Positions 18,903-35,321 of a DNA stretch of 43,808 bases are shown here, one piece after another (position 1 is the first letter of the stretch; each line of letters opens with the position of its first letter). The notes under the pieces were generated by a model, which was given only the letters and a program-made list of their open reading frames with translations, ran no database searches and was not told where the DNA came from. The translations under genes and the position numbers were made by a program. Where the stretch lies: contig JBBDMI010000004.1 in assembly GCA_040878395.1 (NCBI GenBank), positions 1 to 43,808 of the forward strand, read 5' to 3'. The DNA comes from Candidatus Dependentiae bacterium. GTDB lineage: Bacteria > Babelota > Babeliae > Babelales > Vermiphilaceae.

Positions 18903-21068
18903 TTATTCTTTGCTATAGGCATATTTTTTTTGTCTCATAAAGTGCTCTACTACATCTTTTGGCCATACAGCATCAACATCTACTACTTTATCATTTGATT
19001 TGACTGGATAATAATGAGGATACAACGACGCAATAACAACTAAATCACCAGCAACAGCTTTATCATTCCGTTGTAAAATATCTCGATGCTCAGGATTACG
19101 CATAGTTATACCATACTTTTTCATCATCACAGTAAGCGCTTGACCATCACCAGTTGATTTTATACGTTGCACTTCTTGTGCTAATGCAACTATATTTTTT
19201 TTAACTTGTTCTACGTCATCAATTTCAAATCCTAAAACTTGATAGGTTTCTCCTTCGACCTCAACATTTTCTTTAAGTAATTGTAAACCACCACCATCAA
19301 GAAGAAAATTCAGTATTGTTGTATTTGCTTGGGCATGTGCTCCTCGAATCTCATTACTTTTTTTTGATTGAGAAAGCAATCTACTTAAGCCGGTCCATAC
19401 CATACCTTTGATGAGCTCTTTGATTAAGCGCTCTTTACCTATCTTTTCAGGCCAATCCTTGTATAATCCGGCTTGAGCAAGTTCGTCAAAATTAAATACA
19501 CTGGTGTACAAAGAAATAATTTCTGCTCGTAACTCTTCTAAACTTTGCCCATACTTTCCCAATAGCTCGTTATTGTTTATACTGGTAACATCAATGGTAT
19601 CGCCAATGTTATATGCTTTATTTCCTATAACAAGTTTATCTCCATCACGAAATGTATGCTTATGCAAACGGCCACTGCCATGTCCTAATGTTTCATGCAG
19701 TATACATCCAAGGTTCCAAATATCATCACCTAATTTACCTTCAGGATCATGCTCTTTTAGCCACTCAACCTGCTTTGGAAGACTAAACAAAGCACGAGCT
19801 AATGCAGGGTTAGTTAATTGCTTTAATCCTTTTTCTGAGTGATAAATAATTTGCTTTGAACCATGTTGCGTTCGTAATTCATCATAGTTTGGCAAGCAAT
19901 ACGCTGCAAGAATCTCTAAAGGCCCTAATTCGCCTGTTGCAAATAAAGCGATATTAATAGATGCATTAGGTATTGCTGAAAGATCATCCAAGCTCTTCCT
20001 TTTGTATTCATCTGGAAAAGGTAACTTTCCTTCTAAAGATGGCAATAATGCATTAAGCATCTTCATATCAATTGTCTTTGCAGTGACTTCTGCTTGAAAT
20101 CCACCTCTGTATTGTTTTGGATCAAGATATACTTCAATCCAACCAAAATTATAGTCAAGCTTATTATGTGTTTTTATCCATTCAACTGAATGCTGTTTAA
20201 ATAGCTCTTCATCACCTGTTTTCAAAAATTGTATTAAGTAGTCTAAACTACGCTCAGTATGTATATCAAACAACTGCGGATAATGCCGCACATGCTCATA
20301 TGCTTTTTGTAACCAATGCACAGCAACCTCTAACTCTTGGGAGCATCTTCCGCCAACTTTATACACATTAACATGTGGACAACGCTCATCATCTACATAT
20401 GCAACGTCAAAATAAGCATTGATTTGAGAACGTTTATCTTCAGGCAAAGATACGAAATCCTGCTCAGTGAAATCTGGATGATATATATTTATAGCACTTT
20501 CAGCAATATCACCATCTACACAAAGAGTTTTCTCAACTTCATTATCAAATATCGAACTCAGCAAATGATTAATTGATTTATTGCTTCCAATAACGGAAAT
20601 CACTTTCTGTAAGTTTTCAGGTGTTATGAGTTGACATTTTAAATCTAATGGAGTTCTTTTTTGTTCATATTCATCATGTAAAAAATACTGGCCATGATTT
20701 GTCCACAAGTAAACGAGATAGGTAATAACCTCATTGGTAAAATCTTCAACAGAAAAATCTAATTGACACTCCATTTTTTTGAGCTGTTCACGCTGCTCTA
20801 AAATAGATTCAAAGAGGTCCATAATTTCAACTGCATGGCGATGTATTTGGTGTGAACACAGGTAATGTCCAGGTAAACTTGCACGATAAAGATAATATAA
20901 AAAAATACGCTCTTCAGGATGTAATGTATTGAAAATTTCATCAATTCCAGATTTATATTGCACGGCAATTTCATGAAATGTTTGCAATCCTTTTGGAGGC
21001 GGACTTAATTTTGCTTGTATTGATAATACCATCAATACAAACAAGAAATATCGATACATTATTTTCAT
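18903..21068 (-). CDS. Exported M49 (dipeptidyl peptidase III) family metallopeptidase
   Basis: A 721-residue protein similar in size to DPP III. The zinc motif HETLGH is at residues 458-463 and the second ligand motif EELRAE at 511-516. These match the HELLGH/EECRAE pair of family M49. FGWIEVYLDPKQYRGGF near residue 308 also fits. The family removes dipeptides from peptide N-termini. A signal peptide is evident (residues 1-19, cleavage after IQA), so the enzyme probably acts outside the cytoplasm. GGAG stands 6 nt before the start. It is upstream of murA by 20 nt. Confidence 0.9.
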   Translation of the reverse strand: MKIMYRYFLFVLMVLSIQAKLSPPPKGLQTFHEIAVQYKSGIDEIFNTLHPEERIFLYYLYRASLPGHYLCSHQIHRHAVEIMDLFESILEQREQLKKMECQLDFSVEDFTNEVITYLVYLWTNHGQYFLHDEYEQKRTPLDLKCQLITPENLQKVISVIGSNKSINHLLSSIFDNEVEKTLCVDGDIAESAINIYHPDFTEQDFVSLPEDKRSQINAYFDVAYVDDERCPHVNVYKVGGRCSQELEVAVHWLQKAYEHVRHYPQLFDIHTERSLDYLIQFLKTGDEELFKQHSVEWIKTHNKLDYNFGWIEVYLDPKQYRGGFQAEVTAKTIDMKMLNALLPSLEGKLPFPDEYKRKSLDDLSAIPNASINIALFATGELGPLEILAAYCLPNYDELRTQHGSKQIIYHSEKGLKQLTNPALARALFSLPKQVEWLKEHDPEGKLGDDIWNLGCILHETLGHGSGRLHKHTFRDGDKLVIGNKAYNIGDTIDVTSINNNELLGKYGQSLEELRAEIISLYTSVFNFDELAQAGLYKDWPEKIGKERLIKELIKGMVWTGLSRLLSQSKKSNEIRGAHAQANTTILNFLLDGGGLQLLKENVEVEGETYQVLGFEIDDVEQVKKNIVALAQEVQRIKSTGDGQALTVMMKKYGITMRNPEHRDILQRNDKAVAGDLVVIASLYPHYYPVKSNDKVVDVDAVWPKDVVEHFMRQKKYAYSKE

Positions 21069-24805: not shown

Positions 24806-27259
24806 ATGCAAGCAAAAAACATACTATTTTTTGTATTGGTATATTCAGTTACCATAATACAAGCACAACATGAATTTAATTTCATCAAACCATTTAATCA
24901 AATCGGTTTAGATGACATCATGTCAGTCGGGGGTAAAAACGCCTCACTAGGACAAATGATAAGTCACTTATCAAAGCAAGGCATTCGTATTCCAAATGGG
25001 TTTGCAATTACCGCTGATGCTTATTGGCATTTCCTGCAAGAAAACAAACTAGATAAAGTCATCAAGCAACTTATTAAGCAATGCACCCATGCAGACTTAC
25101 ATTCGGTTGCCAATAAAATTCGTACGATGATTATCAATGCAAAAGTTCCTTCATTGTTAGCACACGAAATTACTGATGCCTATCGAAATTTATGCGCCAT
25201 GTATGGCAATGAACAGCTCGATGTTGCAGTCCGTTCATCAGGTACAGCTGAAGATTTGCCCAATGCATCATTTGCAGGTCAACAAGACACCTATTTAAAT
25301 GTTCGTGGCACCGATGCTATTTTGCATAACTATAAAAAATGCATTGCATCATTGTTCAATGAGCGTGCAATTTTATATCGTATCGAGCAAGGATTCGATT
25401 CATTCGATGTTGCACTATCAGTTGGCGTACAAAAAATGGTTCGTTCTGATTTAGCTTGTTCAGGAGTAGCTTTTTCACTTGATACCGAAAGCGGTTTTGC
25501 TGAAACAATCACCATAAATGGCTCATACGGCCTTGGTGAAATGATAGTACAAGGCACCGTAACACCAGATGAATTTCGCGTATACAAACCAACACTCAAA
25601 CAAAAATTTAATGCAATCATTAACAAAACACTCGGCAATAAAACTATTCAAATGATTTATGAAGGCACAAATAAAGGGGTCAAAGAGATTGAAGTCCCTG
25701 AACTTGACCAAAAATTATTCTGTTTAACTGATAATGAAATTTTATATTTAGCTGAAATGATCTGTAAAATTGAAGAACATTATTCACAACTGTATGACCA
25801 CTGGACACCCATGGATATTGAATGGGCAAAGGATGGCATTGACGGCAATATATATATTGTACAAGCTCGCCCGGAAACCGTTCATGCACAGCGCAAACAA
25901 AATGGTAACGTGCTCACTACCTACCGTTTAAATCCCGATAAAAAACTCAAAAGCATTGCTTCAGGCCAAAGCGTTGGACAACATATTGTTTCCGGCATTG
26001 CTCATGTTATTGATGATATTGATCAAGCTAATTTATTAAAAGAAGGCGAAATTTTGGTCACCTCTATGACCGATCCTGATTGGGTTCCTGCAATGAAAAA
26101 AGCTGGTGGAATTATTACCAATCATGGAGGCCGTACCTGCCATGCAGCAATTGTTAGCCGTGAACTCGGCGTCCCTGCTCTTGTTGGCACCGGCAATGCA
26201 ACACAAAAAATCCATACCGGAGACCTCATCACTCTTGACTGCTCACAAGGCCATGTTGGATTAGTATATGCAGGTGCAATACCATTCCAAAAAGAAGAAA
26301 TCTATTTAGAGACATTACCCGAACTACCGGTTAAAGTTATGGTCAATATTGCAGAGCCAAGTAATGCTTTTAACACCGCAATGTTACCCGTTGCCGGTGT
26401 TGGATTAGCGCGGGTTGAATTTATTATAAATAATGCAATCAAAGCACACCCTATGGCTTTTATTCATCCTGAACGCATTAATGACCCAAAAGTAATTCAA
26501 GAAATTAATAGTTTATCTGCTGCCTATGACAACCCAACAGAGTTCTTTATCAGCTCATTAGCACAGGGAGTGGCCACCATCGCAGCTGCGTTTTATCCGC
26601 GCCCGGTTATTGTGCGCATGTCAGATTTTAAATCAAATGAATATGGTCATTTATTAGGTGGTTCATCTTTTGAACCTGAAGAAGAAAATCCTATGATTGG
26701 ATTCCGTGGAGCATCACGTTATTATGATCCGGCATATCAAGAAGCATTTGGCCTTGAATGCCAAGCAATGAAACGAGTGCGTAACGATATGGGATTAACC
26801 AACGTAAAACTTATGCTTCCATTTGTCCGTACATTAAAAGAGGCTGAAAAAACAATTGCCGTCATGGAACAGCACGGGCTCAAACGTGGTCAAGATGATC
26901 TTGAACTTATTATGATGTGTGAAATTCCATCGAATGTAATATGCATTGATGAATTTTGTAATTATTTCGATGGATTTTCTATAGGCTCAAATGATCTGAC
27001 TCAACTTACCTTAGGTGTTGATCGTGATTCGGCCATGTTACTACATCTTTTTGATGAACGTGATTTGGCAGTAAAACGTATGCTCAAAATGGCGATTGAA
27101 GGTGCATTGCGTAACAATAAATATATTGGCATTTGCGGACAAGGTCCATCTGATCACCCCGAAATTGCGCAATTTTTAACTGAATGCGGCATACATAGCC
27201 TGTCATTAAATGCTGATACGGTGATGCCTTTTATCATGCGGCATATAAAAAATACATAA
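24806..27259 (+). CDS. ppsA: Phosphoenolpyruvate synthase with N-terminal signal peptide
   Basis: PEP synthase makes PEP, AMP and phosphate from pyruvate and ATP. The 817 residues include the ATP-grasp region (VGGKNASLGQM; RSSGTAEDLPNASFAGQQDTY), the phosphohistidine domain with catalytic His446 in GRTCHAAIVSRELGVPA, and the TIM barrel with GSNDLTQLTLGVDRD and CGQGPSD. A hydrophobic signal-peptide-like extension (MQAKNILFFVLVYSVTIIQA) precedes the core, which begins near FIKPFNQIGLDD. AAGGTG stands before this ATG, and no other start before the core is well supported. Most PEP synthases are cytosolic, so this location is unusual. Confidence 0.93.
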   Translation: MQAKNILFFVLVYSVTIIQAQHEFNFIKPFNQIGLDDIMSVGGKNASLGQMISHLSKQGIRIPNGFAITADAYWHFLQENKLDKVIKQLIKQCTHADLHSVANKIRTMIINAKVPSLLAHEITDAYRNLCAMYGNEQLDVAVRSSGTAEDLPNASFAGQQDTYLNVRGTDAILHNYKKCIASLFNERAILYRIEQGFDSFDVALSVGVQKMVRSDLACSGVAFSLDTESGFAETITINGSYGLGEMIVQGTVTPDEFRVYKPTLKQKFNAIINKTLGNKTIQMIYEGTNKGVKEIEVPELDQKLFCLTDNEILYLAEMICKIEEHYSQLYDHWTPMDIEWAKDGIDGNIYIVQARPETVHAQRKQNGNVLTTYRLNPDKKLKSIASGQSVGQHIVSGIAHVIDDIDQANLLKEGEILVTSMTDPDWVPAMKKAGGIITNHGGRTCHAAIVSRELGVPALVGTGNATQKIHTGDLITLDCSQGHVGLVYAGAIPFQKEEIYLETLPELPVKVMVNIAEPSNAFNTAMLPVAGVGLARVEFIINNAIKAHPMAFIHPERINDPKVIQEINSLSAAYDNPTEFFISSLAQGVATIAAAFYPRPVIVRMSDFKSNEYGHLLGGSSFEPEEENPMIGFRGASRYYDPAYQEAFGLECQAMKRVRNDMGLTNVKLMLPFVRTLKEAEKTIAVMEQHGLKRGQDDLELIMMCEIPSNVICIDEFCNYFDGFSIGSNDLTQLTLGVDRDSAMLLHLFDERDLAVKRMLKMAIEGALRNNKYIGICGQGPSDHPEIAQFLTECGIHSLSLNADTVMPFIMRHIKNT

Positions 27260-31280: not shown

Positions 31281-31309
31281 TTTACAAAATCAACAAGTTA
31301 AAATATCAT
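31281..31309 (+). promoter_or_regulatory. Likely promoter of the inositol oxygenase gene
   Basis: TTTACA (31281-31286), a spacer of exactly 17 nt and TATCAT (31304-31309) form a sigma70-like promoter, with transcription starting about 25 nt before the ATG. This supports the annotated start and its signal peptide. Confidence 0.45.
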
Positions 31310-31339: not shown

Positions 31340-32158
31340 ATGATCAAAAAAGTTTTTTCAGTAATGGCATTCTATACATGTTTAATTTTCGCAGATTTTC
31401 GTGATTATCCTGAAGCAAATAATAATCCTATCGCACAATTCTATTATGAAAACCATACCCAACAGACGTTAAATTTTGTTTTACAAAAAAAACAACAATA
31501 TGTTGGATCATACCGTAAACAAATGAGTGTTTGGCAAGCATTGGAACAGTTAAATCAATTAGTCGATGAAAGCGATCCCGATCTCAATTTACCGCAAATA
31601 CAGCATGCATTGCAAACAGCTGAGGCCATACGCAAAGATGGTCAACCTGAATGGTTTGTAATAACCGGACTAATTCATGATTTGGGCAAAATATTATGCG
31701 CATTTGACGAACCACAATGGGCAGTGGTCGGCGACACCTTTCCAGTTGGTTGCGCTTATACAAAAGATATTGTTTACCATGCATTTTTCAATGATAACCC
31801 TGATATACTCATCAAAGAATATCAAACTAAATATGGCATCTACAAGCCTAATTGCGGTCTTGAGCATGTACATATGTCCTGGGGGCATGATGAATATCTG
31901 TATCATGTAGTCAAAAATTATCTACCCCCTCAAGCTGCTTATGTTATCCGCTATCATTCATTTTATGCGCAGCATCAGCACAATGCTTATGATCATTTAC
32001 TCAACGAGTATGATCGGCAGATGTTTGCATGGGTAAAAAAGTTCCAAACATATGATCTCTATTCCAAAGACCGCACACATCAAATTGATATTGAAAAAGT
32101 AAAACCCTACTATCAAACACTAATAGCAGAGTTTTTTCCTGATCAAATAGATTGGTAA
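31340..32158 (+). CDS. myo-Inositol oxygenase (MIOX) with signal peptide
   Basis: A 272-residue HD-fold di-iron enzyme; the family oxidises myo-inositol to D-glucuronate. The protein closely resembles animal MIOX, with VDESDPD, EPQWAVVGDTFPVGC, MSWGHDEY and PYYQ. All six iron ligands are present: His89, His113, Asp114, His183, His206, Asp239. Before the core is a hydrophobic signal-peptide-like segment (MIKKVFSVMAFYTCLIFA), with cleavage likely after IFA. AAGGA stands before the ATG. MIOX is mainly eukaryotic and is sparse in bacteria; gene transfer is likely (inference). Confidence 0.95.
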   Translation: MIKKVFSVMAFYTCLIFADFRDYPEANNNPIAQFYYENHTQQTLNFVLQKKQQYVGSYRKQMSVWQALEQLNQLVDESDPDLNLPQIQHALQTAEAIRKDGQPEWFVITGLIHDLGKILCAFDEPQWAVVGDTFPVGCAYTKDIVYHAFFNDNPDILIKEYQTKYGIYKPNCGLEHVHMSWGHDEYLYHVVKNYLPPQAAYVIRYHSFYAQHQHNAYDHLLNEYDRQMFAWVKKFQTYDLYSKDRTHQIDIEKVKPYYQTLIAEFFPDQIDW

Positions 32159-32159
32159 A

Positions 32160-33329
32160 TCAAACTACACGTAATTTTTTAAGTACTTTATTAACTATAA
32201 TAACCAACGCTCCATCGCCCATAACATTAGCCGCAGTACCAAATGGATCAAGTAATAAATAAAGTGCAGTAATGATACTCACCATCTGTTCATTAAAACC
32301 AAGCTGAGATATCAAGATAGGAATCATCACAATGATTCCCCCACCGGGAATACCCGAAACTGCCAGCATTGCCGTACAAAAGAAAAAGACAAATTTTATA
32401 TATGAAATTGGATCTGGAAACGTACCTAAAAATAAAGAAACGGTAACCATTGCCAAGAGCGGTGTGCTGATACTATCACCAACTAAATGAATATTAGCCA
32501 TGATCGGCATAGAAATTTCAGCTAATGGCTTATTGTTCATATTTTTTTCAGCACATTCTACTGAAACCGGAATAGTGGTTGTGCTGGACATAGTACTGAA
32601 AGCAGTTAAATAACTTGGCAGCGCATTTTGTATATATTTAATCATTTTCTTTGTTGATCCACTAGCTGCAAGGAAGTAATATGCCAGTAAAAAAACTACT
32701 TGCACTGATAGAATCACAATGAATGCTTTGCCATAATGAGAAAACAGGCTCGCAAAAATGCCCCGATAATGTATCTCAAGTAAAAATCCAAAGACATACA
32801 ACGGGAGCAAAGGAATGAAATAATAATTCAAAAAATTTTCAACCGCATCTTTGAATATTCTTATTCCTCTTTCCAGCTTTGGTATACGCACAAATGATAA
32901 TGCTATACCAATAACAATAGCAATCAATAATGCATTTTCTGAAGTGATTAACGTAGGAAAATCAAATTGATAATAAGGCTCAACACCACTTGCAATCTGA
33001 AAGCCATCAATTGATATACCTTGAACAACAAAAGGCACTACTGCTACCCCAACGAGATAGGTCAACAAAGCAATAACACTATTTGATACAAAAATACTTG
33101 CAACCAAAACCGCCAACACTAACGGTGCATTCCGTTTAAATGATAAAATACCGGTCAATACAAATGAAAAAATAATAAGTGGCAAAAACAGACTCAAAAC
33201 CGATTTGAAAAGCAAACTAAATGTATAGAAAAAACGCACCGATGACTCATTAAAAAAATCACCACATAAAAATACAAATGCGATGATTGCAATAAGCTGA
33301 AATGGCAATGAAAACTTCTTTAAAAACAT
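32160..33329 (-). CDS. Dicarboxylate/amino acid:cation symporter (DAACS family), copy 1
   Basis: 389 residues with about eight membrane helices and two hairpins. HP1 reads STMSSTTTIPVSVECAEKN, and TM8 has LLLDPFGTAANVMGDGAL. In GltPh the matching stretch is DMGRTMVNVTGD; the Arg that binds the side-chain carboxylate is a Gly here, and the NMDGT sodium motif is NIHLV. So a substrate other than Glu/Asp is likely. A paralogue lies at 34158. The gene's end faces that of the inositol oxygenase, 2 nt apart. Confidence 0.9.
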   Translation of the reverse strand: MFLKKFSLPFQLIAIIAFVFLCGDFFNESSVRFFYTFSLLFKSVLSLFLPLIIFSFVLTGILSFKRNAPLVLAVLVASIFVSNSVIALLTYLVGVAVVPFVVQGISIDGFQIASGVEPYYQFDFPTLITSENALLIAIVIGIALSFVRIPKLERGIRIFKDAVENFLNYYFIPLLPLYVFGFLLEIHYRGIFASLFSHYGKAFIVILSVQVVFLLAYYFLAASGSTKKMIKYIQNALPSYLTAFSTMSSTTTIPVSVECAEKNMNNKPLAEISMPIMANIHLVGDSISTPLLAMVTVSLFLGTFPDPISYIKFVFFFCTAMLAVSGIPGGGIIVMIPILISQLGFNEQMVSIITALYLLLDPFGTAANVMGDGALVIIVNKVLKKLRVV

Positions 33330-34157: not shown

Positions 34158-35321
34158 TTAAGCTAATTTAAGCTTTTTGAGTAATTTATTAACAATGATA
34201 ATCAATGCTCCATCACCCATCACGTTAGTACCCGCACTGGATGCATCCATCAAAAGATACAGAGTGGTTAATACACTAATCATAATAGGAGAGAAATGAA
34301 AATAGGAATCCAATAAGGGCATCATAACAATAAGCCCTGCACCTGGAATGCCTGTAACTGCGAACATTGAAGTACAAAAATAGAAAACAAAAGTTAAATA
34401 AGTTAATGGATCTGGCACAATTGCTTTAAACAATATTAAGGTTGCCAATGATAGAATGGGAATATTTATCCCTGCGCCCATTAAATGAATGTTTGCTAGT
34501 AACGGAACTGACATTTCAGCCAATGGACGATTACCAGTATTTTTTTCTGCACATTCAACCGTTACCGGAATAGTTGCAGTACTAGAAATAGTAGAAACCG
34601 CAGTGATATAACTAGGTAATGCTATTTTAAGAGATTCCCATCCTTTTTTGAATGAACATCTTGCAAGTACAAAAAAACTAAAAATAAAAAACATTTGCAT
34701 ACATAAAATCAATACAATTGCATTACCGTAATGACGAAATAACAGTGTTAAAATACCACGATGATTAATTTCCAATAAATAACCAAATACATAAATTGGT
34801 AAAAGTGGAATAAAAATACGTAACAATATGATCTCAACTAAAGACTTAATTTTTTCAATGGTATCTTCAACGAAAGCTACACGTTTAATCGAAAATACAA
34901 TACCACAAATAACACCCAAAACAAGCATTAAAGCAGGACTTACAAGTTGAGGAATTTTAAAATTAATTAATGGATCTAAAGAACTTTCCACTGCTAATGC
35001 TTCTGCAGCTGCAGGGCATTGTGCAACGGGTAACGCTAATCTCACAAAAACATAAGACAACGTAGTTATAATAAAGTTTGAGACAAAAATACATGCAAGC
35101 AAAATCAGAAGGATTAAAGGGGCACCGCGCTTGAGAGATAAAATACCTGATGCAATAAATGAAAAAATAATAAACGGAAGCAACAAACCAAGAAATTCTT
35201 TAAAAATATGGCTCACTGTGAAAAAAAATCGTACAGCAGCCGGAGAAAAATATGAACCAAAAAATGTAACTAATATAATAGCACCAACAAGCTGTAATGG
35301 TAATCGTAAAGTACGTAACAT
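34158..35321 (-). CDS. Dicarboxylate/amino acid:cation symporter (DAACS family), copy 2
   Basis: 387 residues, similar throughout to the copy at 32160. HP1 reads STISSTATIPVTVECAEKN and TM8 reads LLMDASSAGTNVMGDGAL. The GltPh Arg position is Ser, and the sodium motif reads NIHLM, so the substrate again may not be acidic. AGGA precedes the ATG. The pair likely arose by duplication and then drifted in the substrate site. Confidence 0.9.
   Translation of the reverse strand: MLRTLRLPLQLVGAIILVTFFGSYFSPAAVRFFFTVSHIFKEFLGLLLPFIIFSFIASGILSLKRGAPLILLILLACIFVSNFIITTLSYVFVRLALPVAQCPAAAEALAVESSLDPLINFKIPQLVSPALMLVLGVICGIVFSIKRVAFVEDTIEKIKSLVEIILLRIFIPLLPIYVFGYLLEINHRGILTLLFRHYGNAIVLILCMQMFFIFSFFVLARCSFKKGWESLKIALPSYITAVSTISSTATIPVTVECAEKNTGNRPLAEMSVPLLANIHLMGAGINIPILSLATLILFKAIVPDPLTYLTFVFYFCTSMFAVTGIPGAGLIVMMPLLDSYFHFSPIMISVLTTLYLLMDASSAGTNVMGDGALIIIVNKLLKKLKLA

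Follow-up and report, generated by a model that had tools for sequence, protein, structure and literature searches.

A bacterial-type myo-inositol oxygenase with a predicted export signal in a member of the Dependentiae

A 43,808-nucleotide stretch of DNA from a Candidatus Dependentiae bacterium, here called the window, encodes an intact myo-inositol oxygenase (MIOX) whose closest counterparts appear to be bacterial and whose N-terminus resembles a Sec signal peptide. We infer that the bacterium, which has a reduced genome, is an intracellular parasite of protists. With moderate confidence we further infer the export, location, substrate and benefit of the enzyme: it would leave the cytoplasm by the Sec route and oxidize myo-inositol of the host.

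The MIOX gene is real and complete, with an ATG start and no internal stops (Table 1). Residues 31-272 of its product match PF05153 with an E-value of 3.9e-105, far above the curated cut-off of 25 bits, and cover positions 4-249 of the 249 in the profile. It is the only MIOX copy in the genome. An earlier note on this DNA had claimed all six di-iron ligands and long identical motifs, and both are there: alignment to mouse MIOX shows that the four His and two Asp ligands are all kept, and the motifs EPQWAVVGDTFPVGC and MSWGHDEY were both found. The mouse substrate and lid residues Y44, D85, K127, D142, S221 and K257 are likewise all identical in the aligned window protein. Salt bridges of MIOX join D85 to K127 and D88 to K257 (PMC2584100). 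An AlphaFold2 model built with 28 bacterial homologues has a mean pLDDT of 86, with residues 1-27 below 50, and its best PDB match is mouse MIOX 2HUO (TM 0.85/0.90, rmsd 1.5 Å), such that the window protein is predicted to adopt the MIOX fold. The conserved residues and the predicted fold support the earlier suggestion that the enzyme is probably active. Mammalian MIOX (2HUO from mouse, 2IBN from human) has this fold (TM 0.90) and the same di-iron, lid and substrate residues, but it is cytosolic and has no signal peptide.

Table 1. Coordinates and strands of the features discussed, with the basis or context of each
Feature	Position	Strand	Basis or context
MIOX gene	31340..32158	+	272-aa ORF; PF05153 351 bits; structure match to 2HUO
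Predicted Sec signal peptide, residues 1-18 (MIKKVFSVMAFYTCLIFA)	31340..31393	+	Hydropathy/charge/cleavage score; outside the confident model
Mature MIOX domain, from residue 19	31394..32155	+	Start of free-living bacterial matches; pN/pS
Fe ligand His89 (mouse H98)	31604..31606	+	Alignment to mouse MIOX
Fe ligands His113-Asp114 (mouse H123-D124)	31676..31681	+	Alignment to mouse MIOX
Fe ligand His183 (mouse H194)	31886..31888	+	Alignment to mouse MIOX
Fe ligand His206 (mouse H220)	31955..31957	+	Alignment to mouse MIOX
Fe ligand Asp239 (mouse D253)	32054..32056	+	Alignment to mouse MIOX
Promoter-like site TTTACA-17-TATCAT	31281..31309	+	Consensus scan; about 30 bases before the ATG
Two paralogous SDF-family (SstT-like) symporters	32160-33329 and 34158-35321	-	Both retained in congener G093
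MIOX of G049	L006 / L092:8400-9230	-	Adjoins a WD40 protein with a signal-like start

The N-terminus of the window protein, MIKKVFSVMAFYTCLIFA followed by DFRDY, comprises a basic n-region and a hydrophobic core, then a plausible cleavage site that immediately precedes the FRxY motif at which the MIOX domain starts. Signal peptides were judged by a simple home-made score of hydropathy, charge and cleavage, and on that scale the window copy scores a modest 2.17. By the same score, n-, h- and c-region features were seen in all seven MIOX copies of the phylum, and a signal-like N-terminus was found in none of 107 MIOX proteins from other bacteria; one of the 107 (L058) has a comparably hydrophobic stretch near its start, but before a likely start codon. 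Most bacterial MIOX proteins elsewhere begin instead with a hydrophilic ...LDEWEDDLLxRYPE... segment and bear no signal peptide, and several adjoin sugar importers, unlike the window copy. Free-living bacterial matches to the window protein start at residues 18-20. The earlier note's export signal is thus borne out as a signal-like segment, and the part of its prediction that concerned homologues divides: those of free-living bacteria lack the segment and those of the phylum have it. Universal within the phylum and lacking in homologues outside, the segment points to lineage-specific re-targeting rather than to a misread start. Between the window gene and that of G093, pS is 0.74, near saturation, and pN reaches 0.45 across the signal part against 0.16 for the mature part, a contrast expected if the enzyme is conserved and its signal peptide drifts freely.

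If an export signal was gained, the enzyme probably works outside the bacterial cytoplasm. The leading alternative, which we regard as unlikely, is that the hydrophobic N-terminus is uncleaved or non-exporting and that MIOX uses imported inositol in the cytoplasm; the modest signal score fits it, and to our knowledge the MIOX enzymes described to date are cytosolic. The signal features shared by all copies of the phylum count against a cytosolic enzyme, as does the failure to find a matching importer or uronate isomerase. UxaC was found in none of 101 phylum genomes (its search control matched in 7 of 14), no Sugar_tr-family importer was matched in the window genome, and the one SSF symporter there is PutP-like, so the setting in which inositol is usually imported and broken down appears to be absent. 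Among 42 genes that directly adjoin MIOX in free-living bacteria, by comparison, seven encode SSF symporters and five ABC permeases. There the substrate is often imported to a cytosolic enzyme, whereas in the window the enzyme itself bears an export signal. The window genome also encodes a SuhB-like inositol monophosphatase; as this has no signal peptide, we rejected the idea of an entire exported inositol pathway.

We propose a model in which the cytosolic N-terminal segment of a bacterial MIOX was replaced by a Sec signal peptide, and in which the protein, once exported and cleaved, would fold and bind iron outside the inner membrane. Its final place would be the periplasm, possibly with onward passage to the host through a type II system or vesicles. 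The exported enzyme would convert host myo-inositol and O2 to D-glucuronate, and the likely gain would be either an altered host inositol pool or glucuronate as food. The inositol pool underlies phosphoinositide signalling and osmotic balance. That the enzyme consumes host inositol, as the earlier note supposed, is plausible. It seems quite unlikely that the exported protein acts on another polyol or that its main role is something other than inositol removal. The substrate is not certain from sequence, and the HD-domain oxygenase relatives PhnZ and TmpB use others; however, the identity of the six mouse substrate and lid residues and a structure match far better to MIOX than to PhnZ or TmpB both favour myo-inositol.

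The gene had been described as eukaryote-like, on the view that MIOX is mostly eukaryotic. This view proved wrong: scanning a single genome for each species gave at least 584 bacterial stretches that code for relatives, the best 80 of which come from Acidobacteria, Planctomycetes, Bacteroidota, Verrucomicrobia, Armatimonadetes and other groups, at 55-61% identity. In samples of phyla, MIOX matches above the cut-off occur in 19 of 198 genomes around a Bacteroidota centre, 6 of 189 around a Myxococcota centre and 8 of 199 around a Planctomycetota centre. In pairwise comparisons the window protein reaches 57-62% identity with the better bacterial relatives outside its own genus, against 48-49% with human and mouse, and it has the whole catalytic domain and all ligands in common with bacterial MIOX (PF05153; "inositol oxygenase family protein" in RefSeq) of the Acidobacteria, Planctomycetes and Bacteroidota. 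All trees place the window lineage among bacterial rows, the eukaryotic rows being two, both mammalian. The five copies of the window's family form one clade at 97/92 in one tree and at 75/54 and 76/93 in others, and are split in one; a tree test that held all phylum copies together gave p 0.056. Ordinary bacterial ancestry is the best reading of these data and a protist or amoebal origin is disfavoured. The label eukaryote-like finds no support for the window copy, which in trees with two mammalian rows falls largely where the earlier note had said it should not, among ordinary bacterial MIOX.

Capture from a eukaryotic host, for example an amoeba, with later addition of a signal peptide, is very improbable for the window gene. 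The lineage is host-associated, and the MIOX of G049, from another family of the phylum, groups with human and mouse (98/90, 99/92 and 98/93). AU tests also leave a group of window and mammals formally unrejected (p 0.11-0.39), a result that reflects just two eukaryotic sequences, both mammalian, and a long branch. Set against these points are the placement among bacterial rows in all trees and the closer identity of the window copy to dozens of free-living bacteria than to mammals. A plant MIOX sequence was no closer at 49% and served as a lead only, without weight. A viral origin was rejected, with zero relatives in IMG/VR or phage records, as was plasmid carriage, for which the three matches all lay on large replicons of other bacteria. 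Among the bacterial relatives, four divergent Bacteroidota proteins (L111-L114) carry an insertion before the EQWG motif, and a divergent Myxococcota protein (L121) has SDAD in place of SDPD.

MIOX is flanked on its 5' side by a small signal-bearing ORF and on its 3' side by an SDF-family symporter, both on the opposite strand. Congener G093 keeps MIOX in identical gene order; congener G092 shares the flanking genes in synteny but has no MIOX between them, and the gap holds different ORFs with signals. The site is therefore a variable accessory one, and MIOX is an accessory gene. An inositol operon was considered and rejected, because the symporter is encoded on the opposite strand and G092 has it without MIOX. 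That the contig or gene is foreign to the genome (1.34 Mb, 97% complete, 16 contigs, estimated contamination 2.46%) can be dismissed despite the fragmented assembly, given the matching gene order in G093 and the syntenic neighbours in G092.

The earlier note also gave MIOX a sigma70-like promoter of its own. A promoter-like site does lie upstream, and its -35 block TCTTTACAAA and a -10-like hexamer recur at the same spacing upstream of the G093 gene, in a spacer otherwise diverged. The number of such sites in the region, five, shows no excess over shuffled sequence (6.3 +/- 2.7 expected). The site is thus a weak candidate for a promoter of the gene, and we do not use it as independent evidence.

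Across the phylum (Dependentiae/Babelota) we drew on 101 genomes, mostly of 0.8-1.5 Mb, with numerous signal peptides and a single order prevailing, traits that fit the phylum name. Seven carry MIOX, five of them in the window's family, one in family f12 (G049) and one in family f3 (G021, a contig-end fragment), so MIOX is not a core function. The G049 protein, from the same order, has a signal-like N-terminus as the window copy does, but it is only 43% identical to that copy and 49% identical to human MIOX, and it joins the mammals on a very long branch. A eukaryote-type MIOX may therefore exist in the phylum, in a genome other than that of the window, and MIOX may have entered the phylum on two occasions, both versions being exported. 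It is tempting to speculate that parasites of this phylum took up MIOX at least twice, from bacteria in the window's family and from a eukaryote in G049, and gave each an export signal, arriving convergently at a secreted remover of host inositol; we offer this as a tentative possibility, on balance doubtful.

Other proteins encoded in the window have signal-like starts. A full-length PEP synthase (24806-27259, + strand) begins with a signal peptide (MQAKNILFFVLVYSVTIIQA, then Q) and is kept in G093 at 82% identity; such a segment is lacking in 25 of the 27 PEP synthases inspected across the phylum, and the window genome also encodes another full-length copy that has none (G000:C1:36503-38872). 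An exported ATP-using enzyme would be odd. Tandem GlmU-N-like nucleotidyltransferases without the acetyltransferase half (39335-40126 and 40138-40923, + strand) each have a signal peptide, as do both of their counterparts in G093 and a GalU-like one in G098 (L089:14161-15120). A peptidase of family M49, dipeptidyl peptidase III-like (18903-21068, - strand), has a signal peptide and is missing from the syntenic G092 stretch. A short DnaJ-domain protein (38801-39223, + strand) has a hydrophobic, signal-like N-terminus, and its G093 version has diverged to 37% identity.

Very many Sec signals are also a feature of the protist-infecting Dependentiae Chromulinavorax and Babela. In Chromulinavorax, 44% of proteins have signal peptides (PMC6561590), and in Babela type II is the only secretion system detected (PMC4378268). 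Both secretome papers emphasise ankyrin proteins, proteases and nucleases, and text searches of the two turned up no reference to inositol; a search of the open-access literature found no paper joining MIOX with Dependentiae.

What is new here is a known bacterial enzyme in a form predicted to be exported, one that possibly evolved twice within a single parasite phylum. If true, export of MIOX by a bacterium that lives as a parasite inside protists would suggest action on the host inositol pool. The picture of the large Dependentiae secretome, one of effectors and hydrolases, would also come to include enzymes that act on small molecules.
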